Source: Acidobacteria bacterium UBA7540
GTDB taxonomy: Bacteria > Acidobacteriota > Terriglobia > UBA7540
Direction of reading: 5' to 3'
Length of the DNA: 64,000 bases
NCBI GenBank assembly: GCA_002478145.1
Contig: DLMI01000239.1
Location: forward strand, 1 to 64,000
The notes beneath the pieces are model-generated. The model ran no database searches, was not told the DNA's origin, and saw only the letters and a program-made list of their open reading frames with translations. A program made the position numbers and the translations under genes. Numbering within the stretch: the first letter of the stretch is position 1; every line of letters starts with the position of its first letter. Positions 24,164 through 52,558 of the stretch are shown in pieces.

Positions 24164-25012
24164 TTAACCCCGCACGAGAGGTAGGCGCGCATCCGGTTGC
24201 TTCCAGGTTGAGCGTACCCAGACACGTTCCGGGTCTTCAACCACCGCCATGGTTCGGGAGGTCCCGGCTAGGAAGTTCAAATAATAGACGTCGTATCCGG
24301 GGCCGGCCACAACGGGATGATACCCGTCTCGGACGAGGACAGCATCTCCGTCCCGAACCTTCAGAGTCAGATCTCGAGCGGTGCGAGGATTATAAAGGTT
24401 TTGAAAGGCGAAGCCTTCAGGATGGTCAATTTTGTAGTAGTAAATCTCGTCGAGGTCAACTTCCTGTGGGGGATTGTGGACATCGTGCTTGTGGGGAGGG
24501 TAGCTCGACCAGTTTCCACCCGGAGTGTAAACCTCCACAGCGATCAAGCGGTCGGCCGGAAACTCTGGCCGGATGATTTCAACGATTTGGCGTGAAGTGT
24601 TCTCGCCTCCCCGCAGACTGCTGACGACATCCCGCGGAGTGATGAGCTTGGGCTCGAGACGGGCGTCGGAGGGAACCCTACACTCGGCCAGCTCGCAAAT
24701 GGTTTGGGCTTTGAGAATGACTTGAGTGCTTGAAGGGAGATAAAGCGCATAGGGAAAGCCATCAAAGACGTTCTTTCGCTGTCCAATGCTTACTTCACCT
24801 TTACCCCAGTTTGCCAGGCATTGCCCCCCCAGAAGGACGAGAATTACTTCTTCGTTCTTGGTTTCAAACTCCCAGACCATCCCGGGCGTCAACCGCCTCA
24901 CAAAGAAGCTCATCCACTGCCAACCCGCTTCCTCTCGCGGGAGCCTGAGCAGTTCACCAGGCTGATCTGAAGTAAGATTTCGTGAGTGGACAAGGCTGTC
25001 ATTTTGGTTCAT
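24164..25012 (-). CDS. iolB: 5-deoxy-glucuronate isomerase
   Basis: ATG 25012 (MNQNDSLVHSRNL) has GGAG upstream; the longer frame is not conserved. The 282-residue protein has a two-cupin architecture, with the second cupin metal site in YPPHKHDVHN and DEIYYYKID and later HPVVAGPGYDVYYLNFLAG, all hallmarks of IolB. It converts 5-deoxyglucuronate to 2-deoxy-5-keto-gluconate in myo-inositol degradation. Its promoter overlaps a LacI-type operator, and the nearest regulator gene lies directly upstream in the same orientation. Confidence 0.93.
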   Translation of the reverse strand: MNQNDSLVHSRNLTSDQPGELLRLPREEAGWQWMSFFVRRLTPGMVWEFETKNEEVILVLLGGQCLANWGKGEVSIGQRKNVFDGFPYALYLPSSTQVILKAQTICELAECRVPSDARLEPKLITPRDVVSSLRGGENTSRQIVEIIRPEFPADRLIAVEVYTPGGNWSSYPPHKHDVHNPPQEVDLDEIYYYKIDHPEGFAFQNLYNPRTARDLTLKVRDGDAVLVRDGYHPVVAGPGYDVYYLNFLAGTSRTMAVVEDPERVWVRSTWKQPDARLPLVRG

Positions 25013-25213: not shown

Positions 25214-25257
25214 CTAACCGATTAGAATTGAATACAGGAAACCTTTTCGCCTGTCAA
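25214..25257 (-). promoter_or_regulatory. iolB promoter with LacI-type operator
   Basis: On the minus strand TTGACA (25257-25252), a 17-bp spacer and TATTCA (25234-25229) form the promoter. Three bases further lies CTAATCGGTTAG (25225-25214), a palindrome of the form CTAANCGNTTAG, over the expected transcription start. The leader to iolB is about 210 bases. The rest of the 25013-25503 gap shows no gene. Confidence 0.7.
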
Positions 25258-25503
25258 CAACTTATCTTTGCTCGCCCAGACATCCGCAGATGCGAACCGC
25301 CTTTAGCCAACGGTGCGGCGTGTTCAAATGAAGGTATTGGAGTCTCAGGTGCGGAATTGCCTGGGGAAATGTTGCGCGCTTTCGGCTCCAACCACCGAAC
25401 GGTCCTTGGCCGTCAAGGCCTGGAAAGACGTCAGGAGGTCCACGGAGGCCCGAGCGTGGGGAATCGCTCATGGGGTGGAAGGCTCGAACAAGGTTCGAAA
25501 TCA

Positions 25504-26589
25504 TTACCCAGGATTCACGGGGGAAACAGAGTCATCGGAGCGCATTTTCGCCATGTGGAGCCGGAAGCCACAGGAGTCGCGAACCCGCAGCTCGGGCATC
25601 AACTTTCTCACCACGCCCTGGCTGCGCTGGGTCGCGATCTTTTCCAGCAGCAATTTCGCCGCTTCGAAGCCTACCTGGTATTTGGGAAGTTCCACGGTGG
25701 TTAGGCGGGGGCGAAACAAGGCAAGCCAGGGGTAATCATCGAAGCTCACGAGTCCAAAATCCTCCGGGCACTGCAATCCCATTTCATCAGCGGCCTTCAG
25801 GAACCCCACCGTCATAAGATAGTTGGCAACGTAAACCCCATCCGGCCGCCGCGAAAGCAACGCATGCCCGCCCCGGTAGCCTGACTCGATACGGTAGTCT
25901 CCTTCCATCACCAGTTCCGGTTCGTACGGGAGCCCCTTCGCCTCCAGTGCATCTCGAAACCCCTGCCAGCGGGCTTTCCCATTGCTCACCTTGAGGGGCC
26001 CCCCCACCAGTCCGATCCGGCGATGACCGGCTCGCGCCAATTGGCAGACCGCCTCATAAGCGCCCCGATAGTCGTCAGTGATCACCGCGTCTTTGGTCAA
26101 CTTGGGGTAGGTGCGCATGAGAAGCACAAACGGCGTGTTCACCTCGGCGATCATTCGGCGCATAGACAGAGTAAAGTCCTGGGCCGTCTTGGTGAGCAAT
26201 ATCCCATCGACTCGCTTCGAAAGCAGCAATTCCAGCGCGCTTTCCTCTTTTTCCAGGGTGTCGTCGCTATTACAAAGCAACAGGTTGTAACCGTGCTTTT
26301 GTGCAGCATCCTCCGCGCCCCGGACGACCGAGGGGAAAAAGGGGTTGGCAATATCGGGGACGACCATGCCGATCGTGTACGTTCGTTGCTTGGCCAAGCT
26401 TCGGGCCAGCAGATTGGGTCGGTAGTGAAGCTCTTGAATGGCCGCTTCGACACGTTCGCGAAGTTTCTTGCCAACATGACTCTTCTTGTTGACGACCGCG
26501 GAAACGGTAAAGACCGAAACCCGAGCCGCTTGGGCTACATCATAAATACTAGCGGCTTTGTTGGGTTTCGGCCTCCTCGAATGTGTCAT
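25504..26589 (-). CDS. LacI-family transcriptional regulator of the iol cluster
   Basis: I choose ATG 26589, which has AGAGGAAG just upstream; ATG 26613 is an alternative. The N-terminal HTH is ASIYDVAQAARVSVFTVSAV with hinge RPNLLARSLAKQRT, and the periplasmic-binding-protein-like domain includes IGMVVPDIANPFFPSVVRGA, GHRRIGLVGG and FGLVSFDDYPWLALFRP. The protein has about 361 residues, a normal length. Matching palindromes at the promoters on both sides of the gene make it the likely repressor of iolB and the transaldolase gene. The inducer is probably an inositol intermediate, which is inference. Confidence 0.93.
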   Translation of the reverse strand: MTHSRRPKPNKAASIYDVAQAARVSVFTVSAVVNKKSHVGKKLRERVEAAIQELHYRPNLLARSLAKQRTYTIGMVVPDIANPFFPSVVRGAEDAAQKHGYNLLLCNSDDTLEKEESALELLLSKRVDGILLTKTAQDFTLSMRRMIAEVNTPFVLLMRTYPKLTKDAVITDDYRGAYEAVCQLARAGHRRIGLVGGPLKVSNGKARWQGFRDALEAKGLPYEPELVMEGDYRIESGYRGGHALLSRRPDGVYVANYLMTVGFLKAADEMGLQCPEDFGLVSFDDYPWLALFRPRLTTVELPKYQVGFEAAKLLLEKIATQRSQGVVRKLMPELRVRDSCGFRLHMAKMRSDDSVSPVNPG

Positions 26590-27364
26590 TCTTCCTCTAC
26601 TCGACCGAGCCATCAGGTTTCACGGAGCTTCGACTGCTTCCACACAGGAACGAATCCTCTTTGAGGAGAGGTAGTATAGCATCCGGGCAGCGCGGGAGAC
26701 CATCCGTGACCACCGCAGAGGTGTTACTGCCCCCGCGGTTTGTGGGTTTGGACGATTCATCCAGCGCAGAGCCGGCGGGGGATTCCAGGAGCATCGAAAG
26801 TTCCCCCGAGCGCTTGGCGGCGGGAAGCAGCGTCCCCAGGCGCCGCCCTTCGCGAGCGCGGTTGCTCCCACTGCCCCCACAGTCTCCCCATCGTACTAAT
26901 CAAGTCCGGGAAGAACTCGTCCTGCGGGCCGCGATTTCTTTGGCGAAACGTGCGAGGGGGGCCTTACGAAGGTTTCCGGGACTGTCGGAGGTGCCCTCTG
27001 GGGGTGCTAACCCCCGGCACAAAATTGCTGATCCTCCCTCACCCTGCGAATCCCTTGACACGATGCAGGAATTGATCATAATGCTCTAAGCGCTTAGCAG
27101 CCCCCAATGAGTGCACCATTGAGGATGGGACCAGACGAGCGGGAGGCTGACGGGCGGGGTGGTTCGGTCCGGCGAAGGACAGGGATGCGTGTTACGACTA
27201 TGCTCTGGAGAATTAATCTGGTTTTGTCGGATCGACAACTATGCTCGATGTATTCATCAGCGCTGTGGTAACTGGAGTGAACGCGCCCCGTTGCCAGACC
27301 ACGAATCAATGAATCCCGCCGCTGCTCCAGACGCTAGAAAGGAAATCACCATTGGAAGAAAGCC
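26590..27364. other. Intergenic region between lacI and the transaldolase gene
   Basis: No credible coding frame. It holds the plus-strand promoter/operator at 27055-27097 and a leader of about 270 bases before the transaldolase start. A lacI promoter should lie in the left part, but I cannot point to one. Confidence 0.5.
27055..27097 (+). promoter_or_regulatory. Transaldolase promoter with LacI-type operator
   Basis: TTGACA (27055-27060), 16 bp, CATAAT (27077-27082), then three bases and the perfect 12-bp palindrome CTAAGCGCTTAG (27086-27097) across the expected start point. The geometry equals that of the iolB promoter. Confidence 0.78.
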
Positions 27365-28456
27365 ATGAGTGACCGAACAGCCTACAAGAGCCCTTTGCAC
27401 GAGATGACCCAGACCACCCCCACCTGCCTATGGAACGACTCGGCATCGGTTCAGGAGTTGACCTACTCCCTCGAACACGGGGCGGTGGGAGCCACCTGCA
27501 ACCCGGTCATTGTGACGGAGGTGCTGAAGAAGGAAATGCACCTCTGGGAGAATCGCATTCGGCAATTGATCCGGCAAATGGCTACGGCTACGGAGGAAGA
27601 GATCGGTTGGAGGGTGGTAGAGGAGATGTCGGCCAGGGGGGCCGCACTTCTGAAGCCGATCTTCGATCAGAGCGGGGGGAAAAACGGCAGGCTTTCAATC
27701 CAAACTGACCCGCACTTCTACCGGAACTCGGAGGCCATCGTTGAGCAGGCAGTTCGCTTCAGCCAGCTCGCGCCGAACATGATTGTGAAAATCCCTGTGA
27801 CCCGGGCGGGCATTCCCGCCATCGAGGAAGCTACCTACAGGGGAGTGAGCATCAATGCCACGGTTTGCTTCAGCCTGCCGCAGTGCATTGCCGTGGCCGA
27901 AGCGCTGGAACGAGGCTTGCGGCGGCGAGAGAGCGAGGGTCTGGACATCGCCAGCATGGGGCCGGTGTGCACGATCATGGTGGGCAGGCTGGATGACTGG
28001 CTTAAGGTGGTAATGGAAAAGGAAAACATCACCACTGATCCCGGGTATCTGGAGTGGGCCGGCGTGGCCGTATTCAAGAAGACCTATCGCCTCTTCCGGG
28101 AGCGCGGCTACCGGGTCCGGCTCCTGTCGGCGGCCTTCCGCAATCACATGCATTGGAGCGAATTCATCGGAGGGGATGTGGTGATCTCCCCACCCTACAA
28201 ATGGCAGCTCCGGTATAACGCCAGCGACGTCGAGGTCGTGCCGCGCATCGACAAGCCGGTCGATCCAAAAATTGTGGAGGAATTGCTGCGGAAGTTTGAT
28301 GACTTCCGGCGGGCCTACGAAGAGGACGGGTTATCGCTCGACGACTTCGACGACTTTCCGCCCACCCGGCGCACCTTGCGCCAGTTCATCGGGGCTTGTC
28401 ACGAGCTGGCTGCCCAGATCCGGGAGTTCATGCTACCCAACCCTGACCAGAAGTAA
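27365..28456 (+). CDS. Transaldolase-family protein
   Basis: The 363-residue protein is a TIM-barrel aldolase of the transaldolase family. Visible motifs are TCLWNDSASVQEL with the first Asp, GAVGATCNPVIV, the Schiff-base Lys (about residue 142) in NMIVKIPVTRAGIPAIEEA and GVSINATVCFSLPQ. Late segments (VRLLSAAFRNHMHWSEFIGG) fit the family's phosphate-binding side. It is divergent from the inositol lacI gene and has the same operator as iolB. Since no iolJ aldolase is in the window, it may handle a sugar-phosphate cleavage step, but this is inference. GGAAGAAAG precedes the ATG. Confidence 0.88.
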   Translation: MSDRTAYKSPLHEMTQTTPTCLWNDSASVQELTYSLEHGAVGATCNPVIVTEVLKKEMHLWENRIRQLIRQMATATEEEIGWRVVEEMSARGAALLKPIFDQSGGKNGRLSIQTDPHFYRNSEAIVEQAVRFSQLAPNMIVKIPVTRAGIPAIEEATYRGVSINATVCFSLPQCIAVAEALERGLRRRESEGLDIASMGPVCTIMVGRLDDWLKVVMEKENITTDPGYLEWAGVAVFKKTYRLFRERGYRVRLLSAAFRNHMHWSEFIGGDVVISPPYKWQLRYNASDVEVVPRIDKPVDPKIVEELLRKFDDFRRAYEEDGLSLDDFDDFPPTRRTLRQFIGACHELAAQIREFMLPNPDQK

Positions 28457-28566: not shown

Positions 28567-29853
28567 TCAAGAAAATCGAGTGTATTTCCAAAGGAGCCAG
28601 CCGCATCCGACCAGAAAAGCCAGCATGGCGAGCACGAGCGCCGCAATCCAGGTTGCGGCCATGGCGAGGGGGGGGTGGGTCGCGCAACGGGCCAGCCAAA
28701 CAAAAGCATCAGTAGCCAGAGCAACGATCAAATAGTCCCACCACCGGCGACCGTGCGTAACCATCCCCAGCGGGTCCTTCCCCAACTGGGCTGAGGCCGT
28801 CACTTCCAGATCCAGCCCGTAGCGGTCGCACTCGCGTGCCATCACTTCACGAACTGCCGCCTGCTCGCTTTCCGGCGCCACGGCGCTGCTGATGGCGACA
28901 GCTCCCGCGATTATGATCAGGGAGCCCATGATGATCTGGGCCTGAGCGGGCTTTCCGAAGCTGGAAAGTTCACCAAACACTAGTGCGGCCCACGCCAGGC
29001 CCCAAAGCTGGTTGGTGTTGGAAAGTGGGATGCCCCGGCCAATGCCAATATACTTGGCGGCATATTGTTGAAACAAATCACCCAAGACCCAGCAGAACCC
29101 GCCGAGAAACAGCCAGAAGAGGACGGGACGTGCTGCCGCCACAGTCCCCAAGACCGGCCTGATGCCGCCCAGAAACACCACGGCGAGAGCGCCGGTGGTC
29201 GCGAGTTCGCCCACCGTAAACACGGTGACAAAGGAGAGTGGATTCATTCCGCTCAGATAGGCCTTGCGGTAGGGAATGTACATCGTTCCCCACAGCAGAC
29301 CGGCGCCGAGCGCGGCCAGGATGCCCGGGACCAGCCGGTGCGGCGCCCCGCCGGCTCGGTGCGCGGAAGCCAACCCCAGCAGCGTCGCGCCGAAAACCAC
29401 GGCCCCGGCCCCGCCCAGCACTTTGGCTGTGGTTTTCCAGACGCGGCCACGCAGTTCCCGGAACAGGAACCAGCCCCAAAAAATACCGACCAACGAATTG
29501 GTGTTCCAAAGTGGAAAGGCGACGGACAAACCCACGTCGCGAATCGCAAAAACCGTCAGGGTATTGGCCACGCCCCACAAGGCGCCGGCGAGGATGGCCC
29601 AAACCATCAGGTGCGCTCTCTCCCTGAGGTCGAGGAAGACATAACTAGTGCCTTTCAAGACTACCGGAAGGGTCCAGCGGGCCACGAACACGCCGCTCAC
29701 CATACAAAGCGATATCAGGAACGGCGAGAGCCCCAAGGTCACCAGCTTGGTGGGCGCTTCCGCGCCACCCAGCCACGCGCCCGCCGCCAAGCCGCATACT
29801 ACCCCCAGCATGTGAAGGGAACGCGCTGTGGGCATCGAACGTGTTGTTTCCAA
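28567..29853 (-). CDS. GRP-family sugar transporter (RhaT-like), copy 2
   Basis: The 428-residue protein has about ten membrane segments of the drug/metabolite transporter fold, with EAPTKLVTLGLSPFLISL, LWGVANTLTVFAIRDVGLSV, FPLWNTNSLVGIFWGWFLF and IPLSNTNQLWGLAWAALVFG. These repeated NTN-containing helices typify the glucose/ribose porter and rhamnose symporter group. A cytoplasmic insert near residues 340-375 separates the last two helices. The start is TTG 29853 after GAGGTAAC, or ATG six codons later. It is a paralogue of the gene at 30229-31521 and probably imports inositol or a related polyol. Confidence 0.88.
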   Translation of the reverse strand: METTRSMPTARSLHMLGVVCGLAAGAWLGGAEAPTKLVTLGLSPFLISLCMVSGVFVARWTLPVVLKGTSYVFLDLRERAHLMVWAILAGALWGVANTLTVFAIRDVGLSVAFPLWNTNSLVGIFWGWFLFRELRGRVWKTTAKVLGGAGAVVFGATLLGLASAHRAGGAPHRLVPGILAALGAGLLWGTMYIPYRKAYLSGMNPLSFVTVFTVGELATTGALAVVFLGGIRPVLGTVAAARPVLFWLFLGGFCWVLGDLFQQYAAKYIGIGRGIPLSNTNQLWGLAWAALVFGELSSFGKPAQAQIIMGSLIIIAGAVAISSAVAPESEQAAVREVMARECDRYGLDLEVTASAQLGKDPLGMVTHGRRWWDYLIVALATDAFVWLARCATHPPLAMAATWIAALVLAMLAFLVGCGWLLWKYTRFS

Positions 29854-29866
29854 AGAAGTTACCTCG

Positions 29867-29941
29867 TCAGTGGACGTAGATCAGCAGCAGCACCCCCAGC
29901 ACGAGCACGGATAGAGGGATCCAGAAGTGGCCGTCGGTCAA
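29867..29941 (-). CDS. Possible 24-residue membrane peptide
   Basis: From a TTG at 29941 the frame encodes a short peptide, TDGHFWIPLSVLVLGVLLLIYVH after the start, that is almost one membrane helix and stops 13 bases before the next transporter gene. AAGG lies upstream. The clean single-helix composition and its place inside the transporter operon suggest a small accessory subunit, but the start is weak and no homologue could be tested. Confidence 0.32.
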   Translation of the reverse strand: MTDGHFWIPLSVLVLGVLLLIYVH

Positions 29942-30020
29942 TATCGCCTTGGCGGTTGATCTTCTCAAAGGGAACCTCCAGAAGCCGGATGGTGGCCAGA
30001 CAAGTCGAGCGCTGAACCTG

Positions 30021-30224
30021 CTATGCCTGACGGCGCATAGCGGGAACCAAGTAAGGCTGCTGGTTGCCGTGGTGCCCGCGAATTTCCTCCAGCCGCACGG
30101 CGCGGTGCTCATCGTGCGACTTGCGGGCCGCTGCCGCTTCGCTTTTCGCGCCTCGCCCCGCCGCGGCCGCAAGCTGCGACTGCTGGGAGCCCACGGCCTC
30201 ATCCGAAAACTGTCCGGCGGTCAT
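30021..30224 (-). CDS. Small charged protein between the two transporter genes
   Basis: A 67-residue frame starting five bases after the stop of the first transporter. It is hydrophilic and helical (QLAAAAGRGAKSEAAAARKS, HDEHRAVRLEEIRGHHGN), with no membrane segment. Spacing supports translation within the operon. I do not recognise a family. Confidence 0.4.
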   Translation of the reverse strand: MTAGQFSDEAVGSQQSQLAAAAGRGAKSEAAAARKSHDEHRAVRLEEIRGHHGNQQPYLVPAMRRQA

Positions 30225-30228
30225 GGAC

Positions 30229-31521
30229 CTAGGTGAACCGAGTAACCCTCCAGAGAGTAACTCCCCCCCCCACCAAAACCAGCAGCATAGCTGAGGTGAG
30301 CGCGGCGAGCCAGCCCCAATGGAGCTCCATGGCGGGAACGCTAGCCATCAAAGCAAAGGCAACAAATATTGAGGTGGCCCCTCCGATCAAGAGCCAATCG
30401 ACCAATCCCCGTCCCTGGCTCCGGGCATTCATTTCCTTGCCCTCCATACGCGAGGCTACATATAAAGGCGCGATGCCGTAAAGGTCGCTCTCCCGCTGGG
30501 CTGCCTCTTTCCAGCTCGAGTACTCCCCCTGCGTCGCGGATGAAAATGCAATCGCGACTGCGCCCGCCGCCATAAGCAGCGATCCCCCTATCACCTGCGC
30601 GTACACCCCCCGCCCCAGGCCGTGCAGCTCACCAAAAACCAGGATGGCCCAAAGCAGGCCCCACAACTGGTTGGTGTTGGACAAAGGAATACCGCGACTG
30701 ATTCCTACGTATTTCGCGGCGTAGTTCTGAAACAAATCACCCACCACCCACATGAATCCACCGAGCAGCGGCCAGAAGGCCACATTCCGGCTCCTGACCA
30801 ACTCGTGCCAGAAAGGCTGCAATCCACCCGTGAAAGTGACCGCCAACACTGTCATGGTCACGATCTCCCCAAACGTGAAGATGGTGACAAATGTGAGCGG
30901 GTTCATGCCGGTGATGTAGGCTTTTCGGTAAGGGATGTACATCGACCCGAGGACGGCGCCTGCGCCCAACGCGGCCACCACACCGCGCACAGCATGGTCG
31001 TGATGGGCTTGAGACGTGGAAGCCAGAGATAACAGCACCGCACCTCCGAAGAGCACAAGGGCTCCCCCTAATACTCCAACCCAGCGCACCCAACCTGCGC
31101 GGTGCAATTCCTTGAACAGTAAAATGCCCCATAGAATGCCGATCAGGCTGTTGGAGTTCCACAGGGAGAACGCAATGCTGAGGCCAATGTCTCGTACCGC
31201 CAGGATGGTCAGGGTGTTCCCCACCGCCCAAAGACACCCCGCCAAAAGTCCCCAGACGACTAGGTGGGGAACTTGTCGCAAGTCCGAACCGATGTCGGAA
31301 GTTCCGCGGACCAATGCCGGCACGCTCCAGCGCGAAATGAAAGCTCCAAGAACCATCATGAAGGAAATCACAAAGGGAGAGACGGCTACGGTTACCAGTT
31401 TGGTCGGCGCCTCAGCCGCAGCCAGCCACAGCGCAGCAGAGAAACCGCACATTACGCCGAGTGTCTGGAGCTTGCGCTGGCGCGAACGTTCGGACAAACT
31501 CGCAGTGATGAGCGAACCCAA
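30229..31521 (-). CDS. GRP-family sugar transporter (RhaT-like), copy 1
   Basis: A 430-residue, roughly ten-helix permease that parallels the second copy throughout (EAPTKLVTVAVSPFVISFMM, VGNTLTILAVRDIGLSIAFS, LWNSNSLIGILWGILLFKEL, IPLSNTNQLWGLLWAILVFG). AGGAGG lies nine bases before TTG 31521; an ATG inside the Shine-Dalgarno region is out of frame. Tandem paralogues in an inositol operon suggest two related substrates or a two-subunit transporter. Confidence 0.88.
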   Translation of the reverse strand: MGSLITASLSERSRQRKLQTLGVMCGFSAALWLAAAEAPTKLVTVAVSPFVISFMMVLGAFISRWSVPALVRGTSDIGSDLRQVPHLVVWGLLAGCLWAVGNTLTILAVRDIGLSIAFSLWNSNSLIGILWGILLFKELHRAGWVRWVGVLGGALVLFGGAVLLSLASTSQAHHDHAVRGVVAALGAGAVLGSMYIPYRKAYITGMNPLTFVTIFTFGEIVTMTVLAVTFTGGLQPFWHELVRSRNVAFWPLLGGFMWVVGDLFQNYAAKYVGISRGIPLSNTNQLWGLLWAILVFGELHGLGRGVYAQVIGGSLLMAAGAVAIAFSSATQGEYSSWKEAAQRESDLYGIAPLYVASRMEGKEMNARSQGRGLVDWLLIGGATSIFVAFALMASVPAMELHWGWLAALTSAMLLVLVGGGVTLWRVTRFT

Positions 31522-31894: not shown

Positions 31895-32908
31895 CTACGC
31901 CATGCTGACTTCGACCGGTCGATTCTCCTTAAGAGATATGGTTGCAGCCAGACTTACCCGCATCGCAGCGACACCGTCCGCACCCGTGACCGAAGGCTGC
32001 CGACCCTGTAATACGTTATCCACAAAATCCTGGATTTGAGCAACGTAGGCCTTTTCAAAGCGTTGCATGAAGTATGGTACGACGTCATGTGTGATTCCTT
32101 CCTTGGTCATGACGAGAATCGGCGTTTCCCGGAAATAACCGATCTGTATGGACCCTTTTGTCCCCCAGATTTCACAGCGAATGTCGTAGCCGAAGACAGC
32201 GTTTCGGCTTAGCTGCACGACACCCAAGGCTCCGCTTCCGAAGACCATATTGATGACTGCATTGTCGATATCGCCAATCGCTTTCATCTCGGGATACGCC
32301 AATGTGCAACCGATGGCATACACGCTCTTGACATCCCCCATAAACATCCGTCCCACATCAAAATCGTGAATCCCCATGTCAGCAATCATCCCGCCGCTGA
32401 CTTTAGGGTCACAGAATTCGAGCGGCGGACGAAAGGGATCCCGCGAAGTCGATTGGAAGAGCACGGGAGTGCCAATTTCCCCCGCCGCAACCTTCTTCTT
32501 CGCCGCAACATATCCCGCGTCAAAACGTCGTTGAAACGCGGCCTGGAAAAACACACCCGTGGCTGCAACTGCCTGGAGCACTTGCTCGGCTTCTTGCAGC
32601 GAAGTGGACATCGGCTTTTCGCAAAAAATAGCCTTCCCACTTCTCGCTGCATCGATGACAATCGCTCCATGCTGGCTTGTGGGAGTCACGACAATCACGG
32701 CAGTTACATCTTTGTCCTTGAGCAAGTCACGGTGATCCTTATACCATTTGGGGACGTCGTATTCTCTCGCAAACGCTTCCGCAACATCTGCTTGGGTATC
32801 TGCCACCGCCACGAGTCGCGCATTCGGTACGCATTGGGCGAGATTGGTTGCATACACGCGGCCCATTCGCCCCAGACCAACGACGCCAACGTTCAGACGA
32901 CTTTTCAT
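31895..32908 (-). CDS. Gfo/Idh/MocA oxidoreductase, inositol 2-dehydrogenase-like
   Basis: A 337-residue cytoplasmic NAD-dependent dehydrogenase. It has a Rossmann motif GVVGLGRMGRVYA, the loop AIFCEKPMSTS with the conserved Lys, FQRRFDAGY and the catalytic-domain segment GGMIADMGIHDFDVGRMF with His and Asp. It is a close paralogue of the next gene upstream. One of the two likely oxidises myo-inositol and the other an isomer or the ketone, as in organisms with paired iolG/iolX-type genes. AAGGAG precedes the start and the gap to its neighbour is 15 bases. Confidence 0.88.
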   Translation of the reverse strand: MKSRLNVGVVGLGRMGRVYATNLAQCVPNARLVAVADTQADVAEAFAREYDVPKWYKDHRDLLKDKDVTAVIVVTPTSQHGAIVIDAARSGKAIFCEKPMSTSLQEAEQVLQAVAATGVFFQAAFQRRFDAGYVAAKKKVAAGEIGTPVLFQSTSRDPFRPPLEFCDPKVSGGMIADMGIHDFDVGRMFMGDVKSVYAIGCTLAYPEMKAIGDIDNAVINMVFGSGALGVVQLSRNAVFGYDIRCEIWGTKGSIQIGYFRETPILVMTKEGITHDVVPYFMQRFEKAYVAQIQDFVDNVLQGRQPSVTGADGVAAMRVSLAATISLKENRPVEVSMA

Positions 32909-32923
32909 CTCGATGCACTCCTT

Positions 32924-33943
32924 TTAATGGATTTCACTTAACTTGACCGACCTGTTTTCTTTTACCGATTTCGCAGCGGCCAACCCGATCGCCACAGCCA
33001 TGAGACAATCATTTCCGGTCACCGGGACTGGCTTGTTCTCCCGAACCGAATCGACGAAGGCTTGCATCTCCCTCAAATACGATTCCGTGTATCGCTCCAT
33101 AAAGAAGTTCAGTGGCAACGACGAGTGGGTACCTGTCCGGTCGAGGCAGATATGACTGTCGGGAGCGTTGTTGGCGACCGTGACCATACCTTCGGAACCA
33201 AACACCTCGACGCGCTGGTCGTAGCCATAGACAGCTTTTCGGCTGTTGTCGATCGTTCCCAGAGCGCCGTTTGCGAACGTCAGCGTCACAACGGCCGTAT
33301 CCCAATCGCCGGCTTTCTCGAATACCGGGTCCACCAGGACAGTCGCCCGGGCGTACACTTCGGTGACGTCGCTTCCCATCAAATAGCGGGCCATATCGAA
33401 ATCGTGGATGGTCATGTCCAGGAAGATCCCACCGGACGCACGTATATAGGCTTCCGGAGGAGGCGATGGGTCGCGGCTGGTGATCTTGAGAACGTGGGGT
33501 TCTCCGATTCCGCCGGATTTGACGATTTCACGTACTTTTAGGAAATTGGGGTCGAACCGCCGGTTGAACCCGATCTGCAACTGGACCCCGAACCTTTTCA
33601 CCGCTGCCAGGGCCCGATCGATCTTTTCCAGGCGATGGTCGATCGGCTTCTCGCAGAAGATGTGTTTGCCCGCGCCTGCCGCCGCCACGATCAGATCTGC
33701 GTGCGTATCGGTCGACGAACAAATCAGCACGGCCTCGATCTCGGGGTCCGCGAGGACCTCCTCAGCGCTCTCGGTTACTCGCGGGATGCCGTAGCGCGTG
33801 GCAACTTCCTCTGCCGCCGGGCGGTTGATGTCCGCGATAATCAGCGCCTTTGCCTCGGGCAATCGGAAGGCAAGGGTCTCAGCGTGCACGGCCCCGATCC
33901 TCCCGGCTCCGATGATACCGATATGAAGTTTAGGTTTGCTCAT
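32924..33943 (-). CDS. iolG: Inositol 2-dehydrogenase
   Basis: A 339-residue Gfo/Idh/MocA protein. Its motifs are GIIGAGRIGAVHAETLA, ICSSTDTHADLI, HIFCEKPIDHRLE, IGFNRRFDPNF and GGIFLDMTIHDFDMARYL, the pattern of IolG enzymes that oxidise myo-inositol to 2-keto-myo-inositol. GGAGG lies upstream of ATG 33943. It lies 22 bases after iolE in the same operon, so the functional name is well supported by context. Confidence 0.9.
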   Translation of the reverse strand: MSKPKLHIGIIGAGRIGAVHAETLAFRLPEAKALIIADINRPAAEEVATRYGIPRVTESAEEVLADPEIEAVLICSSTDTHADLIVAAAGAGKHIFCEKPIDHRLEKIDRALAAVKRFGVQLQIGFNRRFDPNFLKVREIVKSGGIGEPHVLKITSRDPSPPPEAYIRASGGIFLDMTIHDFDMARYLMGSDVTEVYARATVLVDPVFEKAGDWDTAVVTLTFANGALGTIDNSRKAVYGYDQRVEVFGSEGMVTVANNAPDSHICLDRTGTHSSLPLNFFMERYTESYLREMQAFVDSVRENKPVPVTGNDCLMAVAIGLAAAKSVKENRSVKLSEIH

Positions 33944-33965
33944 TGTGGTCCTCCTGGGTCAAAAG

Positions 33966-34892
33966 TCACGCGTAGTTTGGCTCGATCGACCGCAGGTAAT
34001 CCCGGTTGCGCCGCGCGCTCTCCTTCGGCGTGCCCATTCCGGGCAGGACGTCCTGCTCGACTAGCGTGTACCCGTCGTAACGGTTGGCCTTCAGCCAGCG
34101 CAGTACCGCGGGGAAGTCCACCGAGCCCTTACCTAATTCGCAAAAGACGCCGTGTCGCAGCGCCTGGAAGTAGTCCCAATGTTCTGCTCGCGCCCGGCCA
34201 GCCACCTCCGGGTGGCAATCCTTAAAGTGGATGTACCACACCCGCTCCTGGAAGCGTTCCAGCCCCTTGACCACGTCGCTCGCGGCCGCCCCGTAAGCGT
34301 AGTGCCCGCAATCAAACACCAGCCCCACCAATTCCGGGTCGGTCAGTTCCAGAAAGCAAGCGATCTCTTCCGGCGTCTCGACATAGCCAGCGCAGTGATG
34401 GTGAAAGACCGTACGCAGTCCTGTCTCCGCGCGCACCGCGCCGGCCACTTTATTCGCACCCTCGGCAAAGGTTTTCCATTCCGCGGGACTCAAGCCCAGT
34501 TCAGCGGTGATTCGACCGGCGTTGCGGGTGCGTTCGGGGACGGAGCCATTGTTGTCCGCCAGCACCAGGTAGGGTTTCGGGTCCGTGGCCACGGCCGCCA
34601 GCAGCCGCGCGGTCTTGAGCGCGCTCGCCACACCCGCTCCGTGCGCAGCCGGGTCTTTCAAAGTCACAGGCACAAACGCCCCCAGCATCACCAAGCCGCG
34701 TCGACTCAGTTCGGATCTGAGCGCGGCGGGGTCGGTGGGCATATATCCCCAGTCGCCCAGTTCTGTCCCGGTGTAACCTGTTTCGGCCAACTCGTCCAGC
34801 ATGCGGCCGTACGGGATCTGTTCCGCTTGGGCTTCCTCAAACTCCAGCGTGCCCCAGGAACAAGGGGCGTTCCCCACACGCAATGCTGCCAT
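33966..34892 (-). CDS. iolE: Inosose dehydratase-like sugar phosphate isomerase/epimerase
   Basis: ATG 34892 ([14 protein letters not shown]) has GGGAGGAGAG just upstream; the longer frame to 35111 is rejected. The 308-residue TIM-barrel protein of the xylose-isomerase-like group has the IolE opening [27 protein letters not shown] and the metal-site stretches [36 protein letters not shown] and GYTLVEQD. It dehydrates 2-keto-myo-inositol to the trihydroxycyclohexanedione used by IolD. Confidence 0.9.
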
Positions 34893-34939
34893 GATCTCTC
34901 CTCCCGGCTTGCGGGCTGACCCCGCCGTCCCGCCGGCTC

Positions 34940-34966
34940 CACGCGCCGGCAGGATGCCGGCGCGTG
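34940..34966. repeat. Perfect 12-bp hairpin between iolA and iolE
   Basis: CACGCGCCGGCA, a 3-base loop and TGCCGGCGCGTG. It lies in the 118-base gap of the operon. No T-run follows, so it is more likely an mRNA-stabilising or REP-type element than a terminator. Confidence 0.65.
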
Positions 34967-35010
34967 ATATAGTGTCACTCAAGTTCGTTGAGTACCTCGT
35001 CGAGACGACA

Positions 35011-36483
35011 CTAAAACTTCCTGCTCCACTGCTGGGGCCAGCGCTCGACCACCACCTTGGTCTGCGTGTAAAACTCCACACCGTGGCGCGCCTGGGCGTG
35101 GAGGTCACCAAAGAAACTGTCTCCCCAGCCGCTGAAGGGGAAGAACGCTATCGGCGCCGCCACGCCCACGTTAATGCCCACGTTTCCCGCGTTGACCTCG
35201 TAACGGAAATGCCGGGCGCTGGCCCCGTCGCTCGTGAAGATGCAAGCCATGTTGCCGTAGCGGCGGGCATTAACCATCTCGACCGCTTCGTCGATCGAAG
35301 CGGCATGCATCAAGCTCAGCACCGGACCGAAGATCTCCGTGCGGGCGATCTCGCCCTGCGGCGGAACGCCCTCCATGATGGTCGGGAAGACGAAGAAGCC
35401 GTCCCCGTAATTCTTCACTTTCTTGCCCCGCCCATCCACGAGCAAGCGGCCCCCTTCGCGCTCGCCTTGCGCAATCAACGCTTCGATCCGTGCCTGGCTC
35501 TCGGCCGAGATGACCGGCCCCATCTCCACACCCTCATCCAGGCCGTAACCCACCTTGCGATTGCGGGCGGCATGGGCCATCTGTTCCGCCAGCACTTTCT
35601 CGGCGCCGCCTACGGTGATGGCTACCGAGGCCGCCAGGCAGCGCTGGCCGGCGCAACCAAAGGCCGAATCCGCCAGAATCCGCGTGGTCATTTCCATATC
35701 GGCATCCGGCATGACCACTACCGGGTTCTTGGCTCCTCCCTGGCACTGGGCGCGCTTGCCGTTGGCCGCGGCGCGGCTGTAAATGTAACGTGCGGTTGCG
35801 GTGGAGCCCACAAAGCTGATTGCCCGAATCGCGGGATGGTCAAGCAGGCCGTTGACCGTCTCCTTACCGCCGTTTACCAGTTGCACCACGCCCGGCGGGA
35901 ACCCGGCGGCTTCGAGCAGATGGAATGCCTGGTTGGAACTGAGCGGCACCCGCTCGGAAGGTTTCAGAATAAAGCAGTTCCCGGTGGCCAGGGCATTCGG
36001 CATGAACCAGAAAGGGATCATGGCCGGAAAGTTGAAAGGGGTGATGGCAGCAACCACGCCCAGCGGCTGCCGGATCATGTGCTCGTCGATCCCTGCCGCG
36101 ATAACCTCACTATTTGATCCTTGCATCAGGGAAGGGATGCCGCAGGCCACTTCCACGTTCTCGATGGCACGCCGCAATTCCCCGACACTTTCGGCAAAAG
36201 TCTTCCCACACTCCTCGGTAACGGTGCGCGCCAAGTCCTTCAGGTTTTCCTCAAGAAGAGTCTTGAGCCGAAACAAAGGCTGGATCCGCTCGCCGACCGG
36301 CGTGCGCCTCCAATCCTCAAACGCCTTCTGCGCCGCCACCGCCGCTGCACCCACTTCCTCTGCCGGCGAGAGGGGAACCTCCGCCAGGACTTGCGCGGAA
36401 GCCGGGTTGAGAACCTTTAAAGCCTCCACTGAGCGCGAGGCGCGCCAGGTACCATCCACGAAGTTTTCCAGCCTTTTGGACAT
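35011..36483 (-). CDS. iolA: (Methyl)malonate-semialdehyde dehydrogenase
   Basis: A 490-residue aldehyde dehydrogenase of the MmsA/IolA type. It has [58 protein letters not shown] and the catalytic Cys282 in [12 protein letters not shown]. As in other CoA-acylating semialdehyde dehydrogenases, the usual general-base Glu segment is replaced by the GAKN stretch. It turns malonate semialdehyde into acetyl-CoA, the last step of inositol degradation. GAGGAG lies upstream; 30 bases separate it from iolD. Confidence 0.92.
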
Positions 36484-36513
36484 CTCGAATTACTCCTCAC
36501 GAGGCCGCCGTTA

Positions 36514-38379
36514 TCACCAGTGGTAGCGCTGTTTTTTGCGGGCTTCTTCGTAACTGGCTCGCGCCGCGCGCACGCTCGCGTTTTCTGAGACCTCCGCCAC
36601 CGCGACATCCCACCACGCCTCGTAGCCCGGCACTCGCAGCTCGCGCTCGGTCTCTACCACGATCACCGTGGTACGGTCCAGCGTCTTCGCTTTCTGCAAT
36701 GCCTCCTTGAGTTCGGCCAGGCTGTTGGCCTTGAGCGCGTGCGCCCCCAGGCTGCGGGCGTTCGCGACATAATCCACCGGCAGGTCATCGCCATCCAATT
36801 GGCCGGAATCGGCGGAGCGGCGCCGGAAGTGCGTCCCAAATCCCCCGCTGCCCAGTGATTGGCTCAGCCCGCCGATGCTGGCAAAGCCGTGATTGTCAAC
36901 AAGCACGATGATGAGCTTGATGCCTTCCTGCACCGAAGTCAGAATCTCCGTCGGCATCAGCAGGTACGTGCCATCGCCAAGGAACACGTATACCTCTCGG
37001 CTGGGGTCAGCCATCTTGGCCCCCATGGCGCCGGGTATCTCGTAACCCATGCAGGAGTAGCCGTATTCCAAGTGGTAGCCGTTGGGTGTCCGAGTGCGCC
37101 ACAGCTTGTGCAGATCGCCCGGGTGGCTGCCTGCCGCTGAAAGCAGGATATCGCGCGGCCCGGAAGCTTCCCACATGGCGCCGATCACCTCGCTCTGCGC
37201 CGGGCGCGGTTGGTTACCCAAGTGAAACAAACGGTCCACCTCCGCTTCCCATGCCCCTCTCAGGGCGGCCACCTGAGCGGCATAATCGGCGCTGACACGG
37301 AAGCCGTTGAGCGCCACGGCAAGGCCCTTCAGGGCCAAACGCGCATCCGCCACCACGGGGATCGCGGAAACTTTGTAGGCATCAAACTCCGCCACATTGA
37401 TGTTCACAAAGCGCACCTGGGGGTTCTGGAACGCCGTCATCGAGGCTGTGGTGAAGTCGGAATAACGCGTGCCGATCCCGATCACCAAGTCGGCGCCGTG
37501 CGCCAACCGATTGGCGGCCAGCGTGCCCGTCGCTCCCACCGCCCCCACGCATTGCGGATGGTCATAAGCGAGGGAACCCTTCCCGGCTTGCGTCTCGCCC
37601 ACCGGGATGCCTGTCCGGGCCGCGAAATCTGCCAATGCCTGCCAGGCCTCGCTGTACAGCACCCCGCCGCCGGCGATCAGCAGTGGCTTGCGGCTGGCGC
37701 GAATGGCTTCCACCGCCCGCCCGCAGGAAATCGGATCAGGTGGGGGCCGGCGAATGAGCCACACGCGCTTCGCGAAAAGTTCAGCCGGGTAGTCATACGC
37801 CTCGGCCTGCACATCCTGCGGCAGCGCCAGCGTTACCGCGCCGGTATCCGCCGGAGAGGTTAGTACGCGCATCGCCTCCGGCAGGGCGGTGATGATCTGC
37901 TCGGGGCGGTAAATGCGATCCCAATAACGCGAGACGGGTTTGAAACAGTCATTGACTCCCGTATCCTGGGTGGACGGGGATTCCAGTTGCTGCAAAACCG
38001 GCGCCACGTTGCGGCGGGCGAAGATATCCCCGGGCAGCAGCAGCACGGGGAGGCGATTAATCGTTGCCAGCGCCGCCCCGGTGATCATGTTTGTCGCTCC
38101 CGGCCCGATGGAAGAAGTGCAGGCAAAGGTGCGCAGGCGATTGCTGGTTTTGGCGAACCCCGCCGCCATATGCACTGCCGATTGCTCGTTACGCACCAGG
38201 ATGTAAGGGAAGTCGGGGTTTTGCTGCAACGCTTGTCCAATGCCCGCGACGTTCCCATGCCCGAAGATCCCCAGCGCGCCGGCGAAGAAGGGATTCTGCC
38301 TTCCATCGCGCTCCACATGCTGGTTCTTCAGAAAGGTGATGATGGCTTGTGCGGTCGTGAGCCGTCGTGTGTTGCTCAT
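36514..38379 (-). CDS. iolD: 3D-trihydroxycyclohexanedione acylhydrolase
   Basis: ATG 38379 (MSNTRRLTTAQA) follows GGAGGAGG; the longer frame is rejected. The 621-residue protein is a thiamine-diphosphate enzyme with the catalytic Glu in LVRNEQSAVHMAAGFAK and the cofactor-binding motif from FLGDGTYLLMPTEI to VLVDNHGF. FKPVSRYWDRIYRPEQ and the VTLALPQDVQAEAYDYP segment match IolD. It opens the ring to 5-deoxyglucuronate. As first complete gene of the minus-strand operon it is followed by iolA, iolE and the dehydrogenases. Confidence 0.94.
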   Translation of the reverse strand: MSNTRRLTTAQAIITFLKNQHVERDGRQNPFFAGALGIFGHGNVAGIGQALQQNPDFPYILVRNEQSAVHMAAGFAKTSNRLRTFACTSSIGPGATNMITGAALATINRLPVLLLPGDIFARRNVAPVLQQLESPSTQDTGVNDCFKPVSRYWDRIYRPEQIITALPEAMRVLTSPADTGAVTLALPQDVQAEAYDYPAELFAKRVWLIRRPPPDPISCGRAVEAIRASRKPLLIAGGGVLYSEAWQALADFAARTGIPVGETQAGKGSLAYDHPQCVGAVGATGTLAANRLAHGADLVIGIGTRYSDFTTASMTAFQNPQVRFVNINVAEFDAYKVSAIPVVADARLALKGLAVALNGFRVSADYAAQVAALRGAWEAEVDRLFHLGNQPRPAQSEVIGAMWEASGPRDILLSAAGSHPGDLHKLWRTRTPNGYHLEYGYSCMGYEIPGAMGAKMADPSREVYVFLGDGTYLLMPTEILTSVQEGIKLIIVLVDNHGFASIGGLSQSLGSGGFGTHFRRRSADSGQLDGDDLPVDYVANARSLGAHALKANSLAELKEALQKAKTLDRTTVIVVETERELRVPGYEAWWDVAVAEVSENASVRAARASYEEARKKQRYHW

Positions 38380-38429
38380 GTGGGCCTCCTCCTGCAACGG
38401 TGCGAGTTTCGTTCTCACCCACCGCGAGG

Positions 38430-38708
38430 CTACATTTGGTCGATACCGCTCACCACTTCGCCCACAAACGGGTCGGCGATACTCGTGACCACCACTCCAA
38501 CGGTCTTGGTCTTCTGGGTCACCATTCCGCGAGCGACAGCGCTGACCCTGTAGCCAGATTTCTGGGCGATACGTTGAATTCTCTCGATCGTCCGGCAATC
38601 GATCAGCGGGCTGTTACGAAGGGTTCGAGACACGGTCGAGTGGGAGACACGTGCCAAGCGGGCGATGCCTTTGATGGACGGCGGCTTCGCGGCGGCGTTC
38701 TGAGCCAT
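38430..38708 (-). pseudogene. LacI-family regulator stump (DNA-binding domain only)
   Basis: The 92-residue frame holds a complete LacI HTH (SIKGIARLARVSHSTVSRTL) and hinge (YRVSAVARGMVTQKTKTVGV). It then stops after ADPFVGEVVSGIDQM at the beginning of the ligand-binding domain. The other 250 residues of the family are absent; iolD starts 51 bases further. It could be a remnant of a former iol repressor, or a short protein that still binds DNA without an inducer response. Confidence 0.75.
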
Positions 38709-38777
38709 GTTATGCACACACGCGCATTGACCCCACAGCTTACACAGGGGTTGCGGAAATTCTACTTCGCCGCTCGA

Positions 38778-38806
38778 AAAAATGGGGCCACGCCAGGCGT
38801 GGCCCC
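38778..38806 (-). terminator. Rho-independent terminator of the TonB-dependent receptor gene
   Basis: Read on the minus strand a perfect 11-bp stem (GGGGCCACGCC / GGCGTGGCCCC, one-base loop, 38806-38784) is followed by ATTTTTT. It lies 33 bases after the receptor stop. Confidence 0.88.
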
Positions 38807-38838
38807 AGCAGACTGCAGACTTGATCGACCAACCCTGT

Positions 38839-41800
38839 CTAAAATTCTAAACGCATGCCGAGGTTGATCGTTCGCATACCCGGCCCGTCACCGCGCAGGC
38901 CGAAAATCTTGCCGTAGTTCGTCGGGTCATCGACGTTGGTATCTACGTCACCGAGGTCGGCATAGTTGAAGAGGTTCTTTGCCTGCACGAGGAAAGCCAG
39001 AGTAAACCGCTCGTTTAGCTTGAAATTCCGGCGCAGGCCGAGATCCAGGTCATACATACCCGGGCCGACCATGACGCCCACCGGCGAGTTGCCCATGCGC
39101 CCCAGGTAGTTAACATTGCTACCGGTGTGAAACGCGGCGCTGGTGAAGGCCGCCTTGTTTAACCAGTCCGCGTCCGTGTGAGGGCCGTTGTTGATATCCT
39201 GACCCGACACCAAGTCCGGGCGGTTCATTTGCGGCGACTCAACACCCTCGGTGTTCCACTCTGTGTACCCTGACTGGTGGTGTCCGGTGGTAAGGGTGAT
39301 GATCGAGAACAACTGCCAGCCACCCAGCACCGCTTGGCCGGCGGAGGGAACCTTGTTCCCCCACGCTTCGCCCTTGCCGAAGGGCGAGGTCAAGTCGAAG
39401 TCCGTCACCCAGCGTTGGGTGGGGATTTCGGCTTGGTGACCCCAGTCGAGCCAGAGATTGAACCAGCTGGAGGGCCGGTTGCCGGCTTCCGTGGTGAAGT
39501 TCTCATTGCCGCCGGGGCCCTCCATATTGGTCATCGCGTGCGCCAGGATGTAGGTTGAGGACAGCATCATGCCGTGGGTGTTTCTCTTGACCTGGAGGGT
39601 GAAGTCTTGGTATTGGAGCGTTCCCCCGTTGTCGCGTGAACTCAGGTAGTCCCAGCTCTCGTAAGGCCGGCAGGCGCCCGCGGGCATGGGCGAGCCATCC
39701 GGGTTCTTACAGAAATTGGGCCCGGCGAGCCCTCCTGGCGGCCCCAAGGCTCCGTACCCCTCGGTATTGAACGGGATTTGATTCAGGTTGGGATTGTAGA
39801 TCAGCTTCATTGCGTGCTGGCCGGTGTAGGTGGCCCGCAAGCTGGTGGTGTTGGTGAATTGATGCTCGACCGTCAGGCTCCACTGCTCCGTGTAGGGGTC
39901 CTTTAAGTGGGGATCGTTCGCGGTACTGAAACCCTGAAGCGGTATTGGGGCGTAGCTCGGAAGTGAGGTGGTGGTGTTCGGCCACACCGCGGCGGGGACG
40001 TGGGGGGTCACCGACGTATCTATGTCGAGGTTATAGTCGATCTCCGCGGCGGTATGGATACCAGTCAGCGAATTAAGAACGGGTCCGAGTTCTTGCATGC
40101 TGTAAATGCCGTAGCCGCCACGGATGACCGTCCGCGTGGAATTGGCAAAGGGCAGCCAGGCGAAGCCGAAGCGCGGGTTATAGTCCTTATAGTACCCCCA
40201 ACGTAAGGTTTCGGGCCATCCGGCCTGGGAAGCAGTGAGCAGCTTCGCGCCATTCAAGGACAGCAGAAACTGTTGCGCCGCCGGGGACTGACACGTGTCG
40301 GGTGCTCCTGGCGCGTTGGGGCAGATGGCATTTCCCGTGGCGCGGTCGAAGTTCGTCATGTTACCGTACTTCTCGGTGAAAGGCCCGTTGTACTCCCAGC
40401 GCAGCCCGAAATTTATCGTCAAGCGCCGCGAGGCCTTCCAACTGTCCTGTCCAAAAAACCCGTAGTGGTAAGCTTCGCCTTGATAATCCGGACCGGCGCT
40501 GTCGAGCTCGTTATATACGGGGAGACCGAGGTAGAAATTCGCTCCGGCGTATCCGGTTCCGGCATTCACGGACGGGTTCTGCGCACTGGGAATGAAATTG
40601 CTGAAGGTGTACTGTCCGAGATTGTCGGCGCCATTGAAAGTCGACTGTTCGTTGACCCCGAACCGGTGCACGACAGCTCCGAATTTCATGGTGTGCCGGC
40701 CGCGTGTCCAGGTGAGGTTGTCGCCCCACTCCATATTCCGCGACTTCACCGGGTCTTCGCGATTGAAACCGGAAATGTCCTGAGCGACTCCGCCGAAATA
40801 GAAATGGGGGAATCCGCTGCCGGGAGGAAACGACGTGGCGGGAAGGTTCAAACCCAGGTCCGCCCGCGCTGTGGCCTCATCAATGCCGATCTGATTGACG
40901 AGTTGATTGGATTGCATCCAACCGAAGCGGAATTCATTCAGCAGATTCGCCTTGACGGCGAAATTGTAAGAAACCACAAGGTTCTTCGGCCGATTTACAA
41001 CGTTGCCAATGCCCAAACCTGGAAGCATCGTGCTGGTCGTCGGCGTGAAATACTTGTCCGACCAGCGGCCGAACAGCCGCTGCCGCTCCGTTATGTTCTG
41101 GTCAATCCGAATATCGTACTGGTTCGAGTCTGAGGTGATGGGCTGGCTAAAGATGTAGCGATCAACCCCACTGTTCGGGGGTGGAATGAACTTGGTAAAT
41201 AGCGCGTTGGTGACGGAGTTGATGGGCTCTGTAATATGATTGTTAAGGTAAGGCTGCCCGGTGAAGGGGTCCATCAACTGAATCGGGTTGGAACCCTGGA
41301 GCAAGGAGCTGAAGTCACCTGTGCGCCAGGCACTTTGGAACACCTGAGTGCTCACGCCCGCATATTGATGGACCTTCAGACCCTCGAAAGTGCCAAAGAA
41401 GAACGTCTTGTTGCGCCGGATGGGCCCTCCTACGCTCACGCCGTAATCGTTGTTCACACTCCGCGAAGGAAGTTGAACGTTGGTGGAGTTGAAGAACACA
41501 TTGGGATTAGCGTTTAAGGAGTTGCCGTTGTAATTGTAAAAGGCTGCGCCGTGAAGCTGGTTCGTCCCCCCCTTGGTAACGAACAACACGTCGGCGACTC
41601 TGGAATATTCGGCGGCATTCCCCACCGAATCGATCCGTAGTTCCGAAATAGAGTCGGTCGAGGGGAAAGGGTTAAAGTCGACGCCATTCCGCCGGGTGCT
41701 TCCATCCCAGGTTCCGTCGACGGTCACGTCGCTCATGGCCGCGGAGGCGCCCTGGATGTCGAATGGCGTGGCGGCGCGGCCATCGGCCCCCCCTCCCTTC

Positions 41801-51600: not shown

Positions 51601-52183
51601 TATAGATGCTCCGCTGGTTGCACTGGGCGACATCGTCCGGGGAACCTGGCCCATAGAGTTCGGCGACCGCAAGGGGACCATCTTCTCTTATGTCATGAAC
51701 AACTACTGGGACACAAACTACGTCGCCGGCCAAGGCGGTGACTTCACCTTCCGCTACGTGCTCACCAGCGCTTCTGCCCTCGACCCCCCTGCCCTCACAC
51801 GGATGGGCTGGGAAGCTCTGACCCCGCTCGAAACCGACGAAATTAAGTATCAAGACAAGTCCGTAAACCGGCCAGGGCCACTCGATCCCGTTCAGGGCGG
51901 ATTCCTGAATGTGGATGACCCAGGTGTAGTGCTACTGACTTGGAAGCAAGCCGAGGATCACAACGGTTATATCCTGCGGTTCCTGGAGATCGCTGGGCGA
52001 CCAACGACGGTTAGCGTAAGTTCACCGGTCCTGGACATTCAATCAGCTTGGCTCTGCAATGCGATGGAGGAGAATCAACAATCCCTCGCGGTCTCGGAGA
52101 AAGGTGCCAGGTTTAGCGTCAAGCCTTATGAAATCGTGACCGTGCGTGTGCAGGGGAGGCCGGCGCTTGCCGCGGTTCACTAA
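48663..52183 (+). CDS. GH38 alpha-mannosidase-like protein with PL4-like N-terminal domain, frameshifted
   Basis: ATG 48663 gives MRSQTRWLPIVCLLACG with a signal peptide. Residues about 25-190 (STTIWQIGSFDKSSREF, GHRAHPFTIKFSI, LDLSIYGRHGW) resemble the carbohydrate-binding domain III of rhamnogalacturonan lyases. After a frameshift at the G5 run 49235-49239 (one more G restores it) the protein continues GNSGIHYDALKLEQDPTGR, a beta-sandwich, then the GH38 domain with NIFVIPHEHLDVGYSDY and later LSIEHTWEADRG, and C-terminal beta domains. The total is about 1170 residues. Exported GH38-type enzymes cleave alpha-mannosides. The break may be a sequence error, since both halves are well preserved. 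Confidence 0.82.
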
Positions 52184-52251
52184 TCGTCCCGGTTTCACCC
52201 GATGCTGAGAGAATACCGCAAGCTAAGTCGAGGGCACGAGTTCCGCGGTAG

Positions 52252-52419
52252 AGCGAAGGCTTCCGGATCAAAGAAGAGAACCTTACTCGGCTATGGTCTT
52301 TGGTGTTTGAGCACATCAACCTGGTGGGCCGTTATAGGTTCTCCATCCCCGACCCGGTTCAGCACGGTGAATTGTGGCCCCTGAGGAACCCAGCGGACCG
52401 CTTGGAGGATATCCTCTGA
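52252..52419 (+). pseudogene. C-terminal tail of a Tn3-family transposase
   Basis: A frame with the tail pattern LTRLWSLVFEHINLVGRYRF, then GELWPLRNPADRLEDIL and a stop, as in Tn3-type transposases. A TAG lies directly upstream, so only about 55 residues remain. No terminal inverted repeat was recognised. The remainder of 52184-52558 shows nothing else. Confidence 0.55.
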
Positions 52420-52558
52420 AGCTCTTAAGCGAGATTTCTGTCCAGTTGCACCCCAACACCGAAGTCCATTAAAGTTACCCCTGCGATTTCCGGTGTCAGG
52501 TATAGGATGACGTGCTTTTGATTATGGGAATTCTTTCAGTTAGCGAGGGGGAGATCGT

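Follow-up and report, generated by a model that had tools for sequence, protein, structure and literature searches.

The 64 kb stretch of DNA analyzed here (64,000 nt; hereafter the window) carries a gene for a LacI-family regulator, the proposed IolR (25504..26613, minus strand), situated between iolB (24164..25012, minus strand) and tal (27365..28456, plus strand). The iolB product, a 5-deoxy-glucuronate isomerase of 282 aa, scored 296.9 bits with TIGR04378 (cut-off 205) and also matched PF04962. The tal product (363 aa) is transaldolase-like, with 129.9 bits for PF00923; its score with the best NCBIfam transaldolase model, 127.6 bits, was under the cut-off of 367. Further to the right, an operon iolD-iolA-iolE-iolG-iolG occupies 31895..38379 on the minus strand, with iolD starting at 38379. 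Its genes scored above the cut-offs of TIGR04377, TIGR01722 and TIGR04380 (twice), except that iolE reached 187.8 bits with TIGR04379, under the cut-off of 290.

Several other features of the window were recorded. Two adjacent inositol 2-dehydrogenase genes at 31895-33943 both exceed the IolG cut-off. To the right of tal, two sugar-transporter-like genes (PF06800) stand in tandem at 28567-31521 with 375 bp between them, and a pair of glycoside hydrolase family 38-like genes are neighbours on the plus strand at 49247-56047. A further protein, provisionally labelled 'bigTBDT', is a CarboxypepD_reg and outer-membrane-barrel protein. Right before iolD, a 92-residue ORF (38430-38708, minus strand) encodes a LacI headpiece only (PF00356, 1.2e-10). 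Its counterpart in the related locus L001, also located before iolD, extends 250 residues past the stop of the window copy; therefore, the window copy looks like a truncated LacI remnant.

The assignment of the complete regulator to the LacI family follows from a PF00356 headpiece (1.8e-16), a C-terminal periplasmic-binding-like domain PF13377 (9.3e-35) and a hinge leucine, L73, that corresponds to residue AA-54 of the family; in PMC2978694 the leucine at residue 54 is described as inserting into the central CG of the operator. The recognition helix reads VSVFTVSAVVN. Counted from the first ATG (26613) the protein has 369 aa, while the 361 residues given in the earlier note correspond to a start at the second ATG. 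With its gene and the sites described below standing beside inositol catabolic genes, the protein has the genomic context of a LacI-family IolR.

The palindrome CTAANCGNTTAG had exact matches at only two positions in the 64 kb window, 25214 and 27086, on either side of lacI, just where the earlier note had placed them. One is the operator CTAATCGGTTAG (25214..25225, minus strand) over the presumed iolB transcription start and the other is the operator CTAAGCGCTTAG (27086..27097, plus strand) over the presumed tal transcription start. In PMC4052901, LacI-type operators are described as even palindromes with a central CG and motifs of 16-22 nt; CTAANCGNTTAG, assessed over 12 bp, has such a form and stands ahead of the putatively regulated genes.

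Both operators are accompanied by a promoter. For tal, the -35 box TTGACA (27055..27060, plus strand) starts 31 nt before the operator, and the -10 box CATAAT (27077..27082, plus strand) follows after a spacer of 16 nt, with the operator 3 nt further on (TTGACA-16-CATAAT-3-CTAAGCGCTTAG). For iolB, TTGACA (25252..25257, minus strand) starts 32 nt before the operator, and the arrangement can be written as TTGACA-17-TATTCA-3-CTAATCGGTTAG, where TATTCA agrees with TATAAT at just three of six positions; the -10 box favoured by a scan was TTCAAT, with a spacer of 19 nt and one base from the operator. The description of a -10 box followed by three bases thus held for tal and is less certain for iolB, whose -10 box is weak in either version (TATTCA or TTCAAT). 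The claim of equal geometry at the two promoters was borne out when distances were taken from TTGACA (32 and 31 nt, the same within one base). Since the operators start 31-32 nt past the TTGACA start, both are expected to cover the presumed transcription start.

With respect to the numbers of matches, two exact copies of CTAANCGNTTAG in the two spacers (1,242 bp) compare with 0.0002 expected under a first-order Markov model. With up to two mismatches, the window contained 10 matches compared to 13.7 expected, so that only exact CTAANCGNTTAG matches are informative there. We found no CTAANCGNTTAG site with up to two mismatches in the region 38380-38840 ahead of the iolD operon. The 400 nt upstream of the window lacI contained no site either.

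Relatives were fetched by the regulator protein alone and the best 80 loci were taken; the 21 closest of these (L001-L021) had titles naming Acidobacteria or taxa within that phylum. The orthologs of the regulator were 52-91% identical to it and were mostly located beside iol genes. L001, the closest among the best 80 loci (87%), kept the tal site with one mismatch and had no operator before iolB, which in this locus sits close behind lacI. The gene order of the window, i.e. tal, operator, lacI, operator, iolB, was observed in L115 (genome G171) and L116 (G132), with DNA identities to the window in aligned pieces of 80-87% and 70-78%, respectively. When the tal-lacI spacers of four genomes were compared, the mean column identity was 64%, with TTGACA and AAGCGCTTAG standing out as invariant blocks. 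Downstream of tal in L116, the genes iolD, iolA, iolE and iolG2 follow on the same strand; a single operator could therefore serve all of them. Among four later F-type loci found by protein search, L140-L143, sites with 0-1 mismatch were present before iol genes in three, the remaining locus being a 7-kb contig.

To compare loci we defined an ortholog group of 19 of the best 80 loci (311 kb), whose regulators have Phe, or Tyr in one case, at residue 16. In this group, CTAA was the commonest of the 256 half-sites that make exact palindromes of the same shape, with 14 copies in 9 of 19 loci. L018 and L019 (52-53% identity) had been omitted from the group after showing no CTAA site, and their differing recognition helix was noticed only after the omission; with both included, the count was 14 exact copies in 9 of 21 loci. 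The exact CTAA palindrome was absent from the control group, which comprised 59 loci (1.03 Mb) with other LacI proteins; most of these loci belong to other phyla, and their base composition is different. Allowing one mismatch gave 40 sites in 17 of 19 ortholog loci compared to 10 in 8 of 59 control loci; by this measure, CTAA ranked fourth by count, after G+C-rich half-sites, and first by ratio. L004 and L017 had no site with 0-1 mismatch.

The location of the sites relative to genes varied among the relatives. Among the 18 iolB genes (the window counted), 13 had a site with 0-1 mismatch in the 400 nt before the gene, as did 7 of the 16 iolD genes of relatives and just 6 of 23 lacI genes. Sites ahead of iolE and iolG genes were seen in relatives as well, besides those ahead of iolD and lacI.

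We also scanned the complete genomes of L001-L021 (21 genomes, 113 Mb). The exact pattern occurred 27 times, compared to 162 times for the reversed pattern, a control with identical letters and different dinucleotides. The lacI/iol loci, which make up 0.33 Mb, accounted for 14 of the 27 exact sites, where an even spread predicts 0.08; thus, the motif is rare across the genomes and clusters at inositol genes. The enrichment that the earlier note had named as support for its proposal was, therefore, present in the genomes of the 21 relatives. The other 13 exact sites lay away from the fetched loci; ten of them had no clear link, four of these ten being inside ORFs. One of the off-locus sites, in L102, lies upstream of an iolG-like gene within the end of the preceding ORF. 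Off-locus exact sites in L086 and L096 were found near outer-membrane-receptor-like genes.

The distance between the -35 box and the operator was examined across the same relatives. Of the 41 sites with 0-1 mismatch in L001-L021, 12 were preceded by TTGACA at a distance of 30-32 nt, compared to 0.03 expected; these loci had been chosen without reference to the pattern, and their genomes are related and hence not independent. The L012 and L020 sites are near-identical and not independent of each other; without L020, the count was 11 of 37. Adding the window, L115 and L116 raised the count to 18 of 47, where the sites of L115 and L116 are not independent evidence for the promoter-operator pattern because these two loci had surfaced through it. 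None of the seven sites in L140-L143 had TTGACA at 30-32 nt. The fixed spacing is, therefore, not universal and is held at certain promoters and in certain clades.

We searched 299 genomes of the class for the composite pattern TTGACA-N24-26-CWAANCGNTTAG and obtained 10 places in 8 genomes, compared to one for the reversed control. Nine of the ten places were at lacI/iol loci, and the tenth, in genome G192, lay in the vicinity of iolE- and iolG-like matches that were weak and partial. Of the 299 genomes, 12 carried a LacI ortholog at E ≤ 1e-100, and six of the eight genomes with the composite pattern belonged to these 12 (P = 2.6e-8). As for the other two, G009 had a LacI match that did not reach E ≤ 1e-100, the ortholog being in two pieces by tblastn, and G192 had no LacI match at E ≤ 1e-40.

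The code relating LacI-family residues to operator bases, as given in PMC2978694, connects residue 20 with operator position 6, where Arg-20 is paired with G, and residues 15 and 16 with positions 5 and 4, respectively. The window regulator has V at residue 15, F at residue 16 and A at residue 20. Its residues 17-20 are TVSA, which places it outside the TVSR group from which that code derives; the orthologs compared have TVSA too, except for TASA in L001, TVSG in L116 and TVSV in L016. In perfect palindromes upstream of lacI genes, position 6 was G in 21 of 22 cases for regulators with Arg-20, T in 4 of 5 for Met-20, and C in 7 of 10 for Ala-20, five of those seven coming from the Ala-16 clade. 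The outer C of the predicted window operator thus fits the Ala at residue 20.

Variation at residue 16 provides a further comparison. Seven genomes, among them G020 and G021, encode orthologs with Ala-16 (A-type), and in five of the seven an exact CGAANCGNTTCG precedes lacI by no more than about 300 nt. Of the 25 F-type loci, 13 contained a total of 19 exact CTAA palindromes and none had CGAA, while the A-type loci contained 8 exact CGAA palindromes in 6 of 7 loci and one CTAA. In the A-type loci, which are G+C-richer (67-70% G+C), CGAA was just fourth by count, one of its 8 copies was inside iolD, and some loci had CTAA or mixed sites. L070, with Ala-16 and only 35% identity, had no CGAA palindrome upstream of lacI. 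For the Ala-16 orthologs L018, L019, L144, L146 and L147, we also noted CGAAGCGCTTCG upstream of lacI, accompanied by a further site of less perfect form at a distance of 66-236 bp. It is suggestive that orthologs with Ala instead of Phe at residue 16 tend to have CGAANCGNTTCG in place of CTAANCGNTTAG. Whether this IolR clade, outside the TVSR group, extends the LacI code, pairing Ala-20 with C at position 6, and the replacement of Phe-16 by Ala with G instead of T at position 5 (CGAANCGNTTCG instead of CTAANCGNTTAG), we consider an even call.

The LacI-family protein (25504-26613) is very probably a local repressor of inositol catabolism that would act at CTAANCGNTTAG in the two promoters flanking its gene. 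What is observed is that the sites exist, have the described geometry, recur in relatives and are tied to the LacI clade; beyond this, we infer the inducer and that the protein binds DNA, forms a dimer and acts as a repressor and not as an activator. The regulator, presumably dimeric, would bind the 12-bp even palindrome CTAANCGNTTAG at the iolB and tal promoters. The bound repressor, lying over the presumed transcription start, would block RNA polymerase, and inositol or one of its breakdown products may free the repressor from its operator. In the window, tal is transcribed in the opposite direction to the iolD operon, which lacks a site of its own; the regulator would therefore control tal and iolB only. 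The small local regulon proposed earlier is thus supported by the sequence, with operators in the window only at tal and iolB.

The two sites could be served by another LacI-family regulator, for instance by a second LacI that left the remnant before iolD, with the adjacent gene being a bystander. LacI paralogs are indeed numerous (G171 by itself has six matches at E ≤ 1e-40), and L001 has a second LacI upstream of iolD. However, the motif tracks the clade of the adjacent LacI: 17 of the 19 Phe/Tyr-16 loci have it with 0-1 mismatch, and none of the 59 loci of other LacI proteins has it in exact form. Most genomes showing the promoter-operator pattern also encode an ortholog of the adjacent LacI. 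The remnant in the window, moreover, has a TVSR helix, which predicts G and not C at position 6. Taken together, these data make assignment of the sites to another regulator improbable.

We consider slightly less probable still that the regulator is an activator, or that a long loop joins the two operators, whose centres are 1,872 bp apart. The presence of operators on both sides of the regulator gene in three genomes (the window, L115 and L116) would suit a loop, yet looping requires tetramers and L001 manages without an iolB operator, while the position of the sites at the expected start of the polymerase suits repression. The pattern with up to two mismatches was no commoner in the window than in shuffled sequences, as would be the case for chance palindromes in A+T-rich sequence beside -10 boxes. 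Such an origin of the two exact sites is, however, contradicted by their conservation in relatives and by the enrichment at ortholog loci, and we regard it as hardly credible. Most likely, the locus encodes a LacI-type inositol repressor with a predicted local regulon of two promoters, a system of an already known kind.

In the literature searched we found no published inositol operator or regulon for Acidobacteria. The predicted operator and regulon would concern inositol use in soil Acidobacteria, a group previously unmapped for such control. Besides, the two subclades of orthologs make a natural LacI pair differing at one specificity residue and one operator base, and could therefore make the LacI code testable outside the TVSR group.

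In E. coli, LacI controls lactose genes through the O1 operator located over the transcription start, has a TVSR recognition helix and prefers an outer G in the operator. The window system would be alike in the operator position over the transcription start, in the protein domains and in the half-site rules with a central CG. On the other hand, the window regulator differs from E. coli LacI in having TVSA instead of TVSR, an outer C instead of G, and inositol instead of lactose genes as neighbours.

The closest parallel among inositol regulators is the LacI-family IolR, for which seven inositol groups are listed in PMC4052901. The two systems share local LacI-family control of inositol genes, predicted in the case of the window, and an even palindrome with a central CG; they differ in that the main text of that source makes no mention of Acidobacteria. 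IpsA of Corynebacterium is also a LacI-type regulator in inositol metabolism with a palindromic motif, and myo-inositol releases it from DNA (PMC3899939). Unlike the regulator proposed here, IpsA serves the synthesis of inositol-derived lipids via ino1, according to the same text, and not inositol catabolism.
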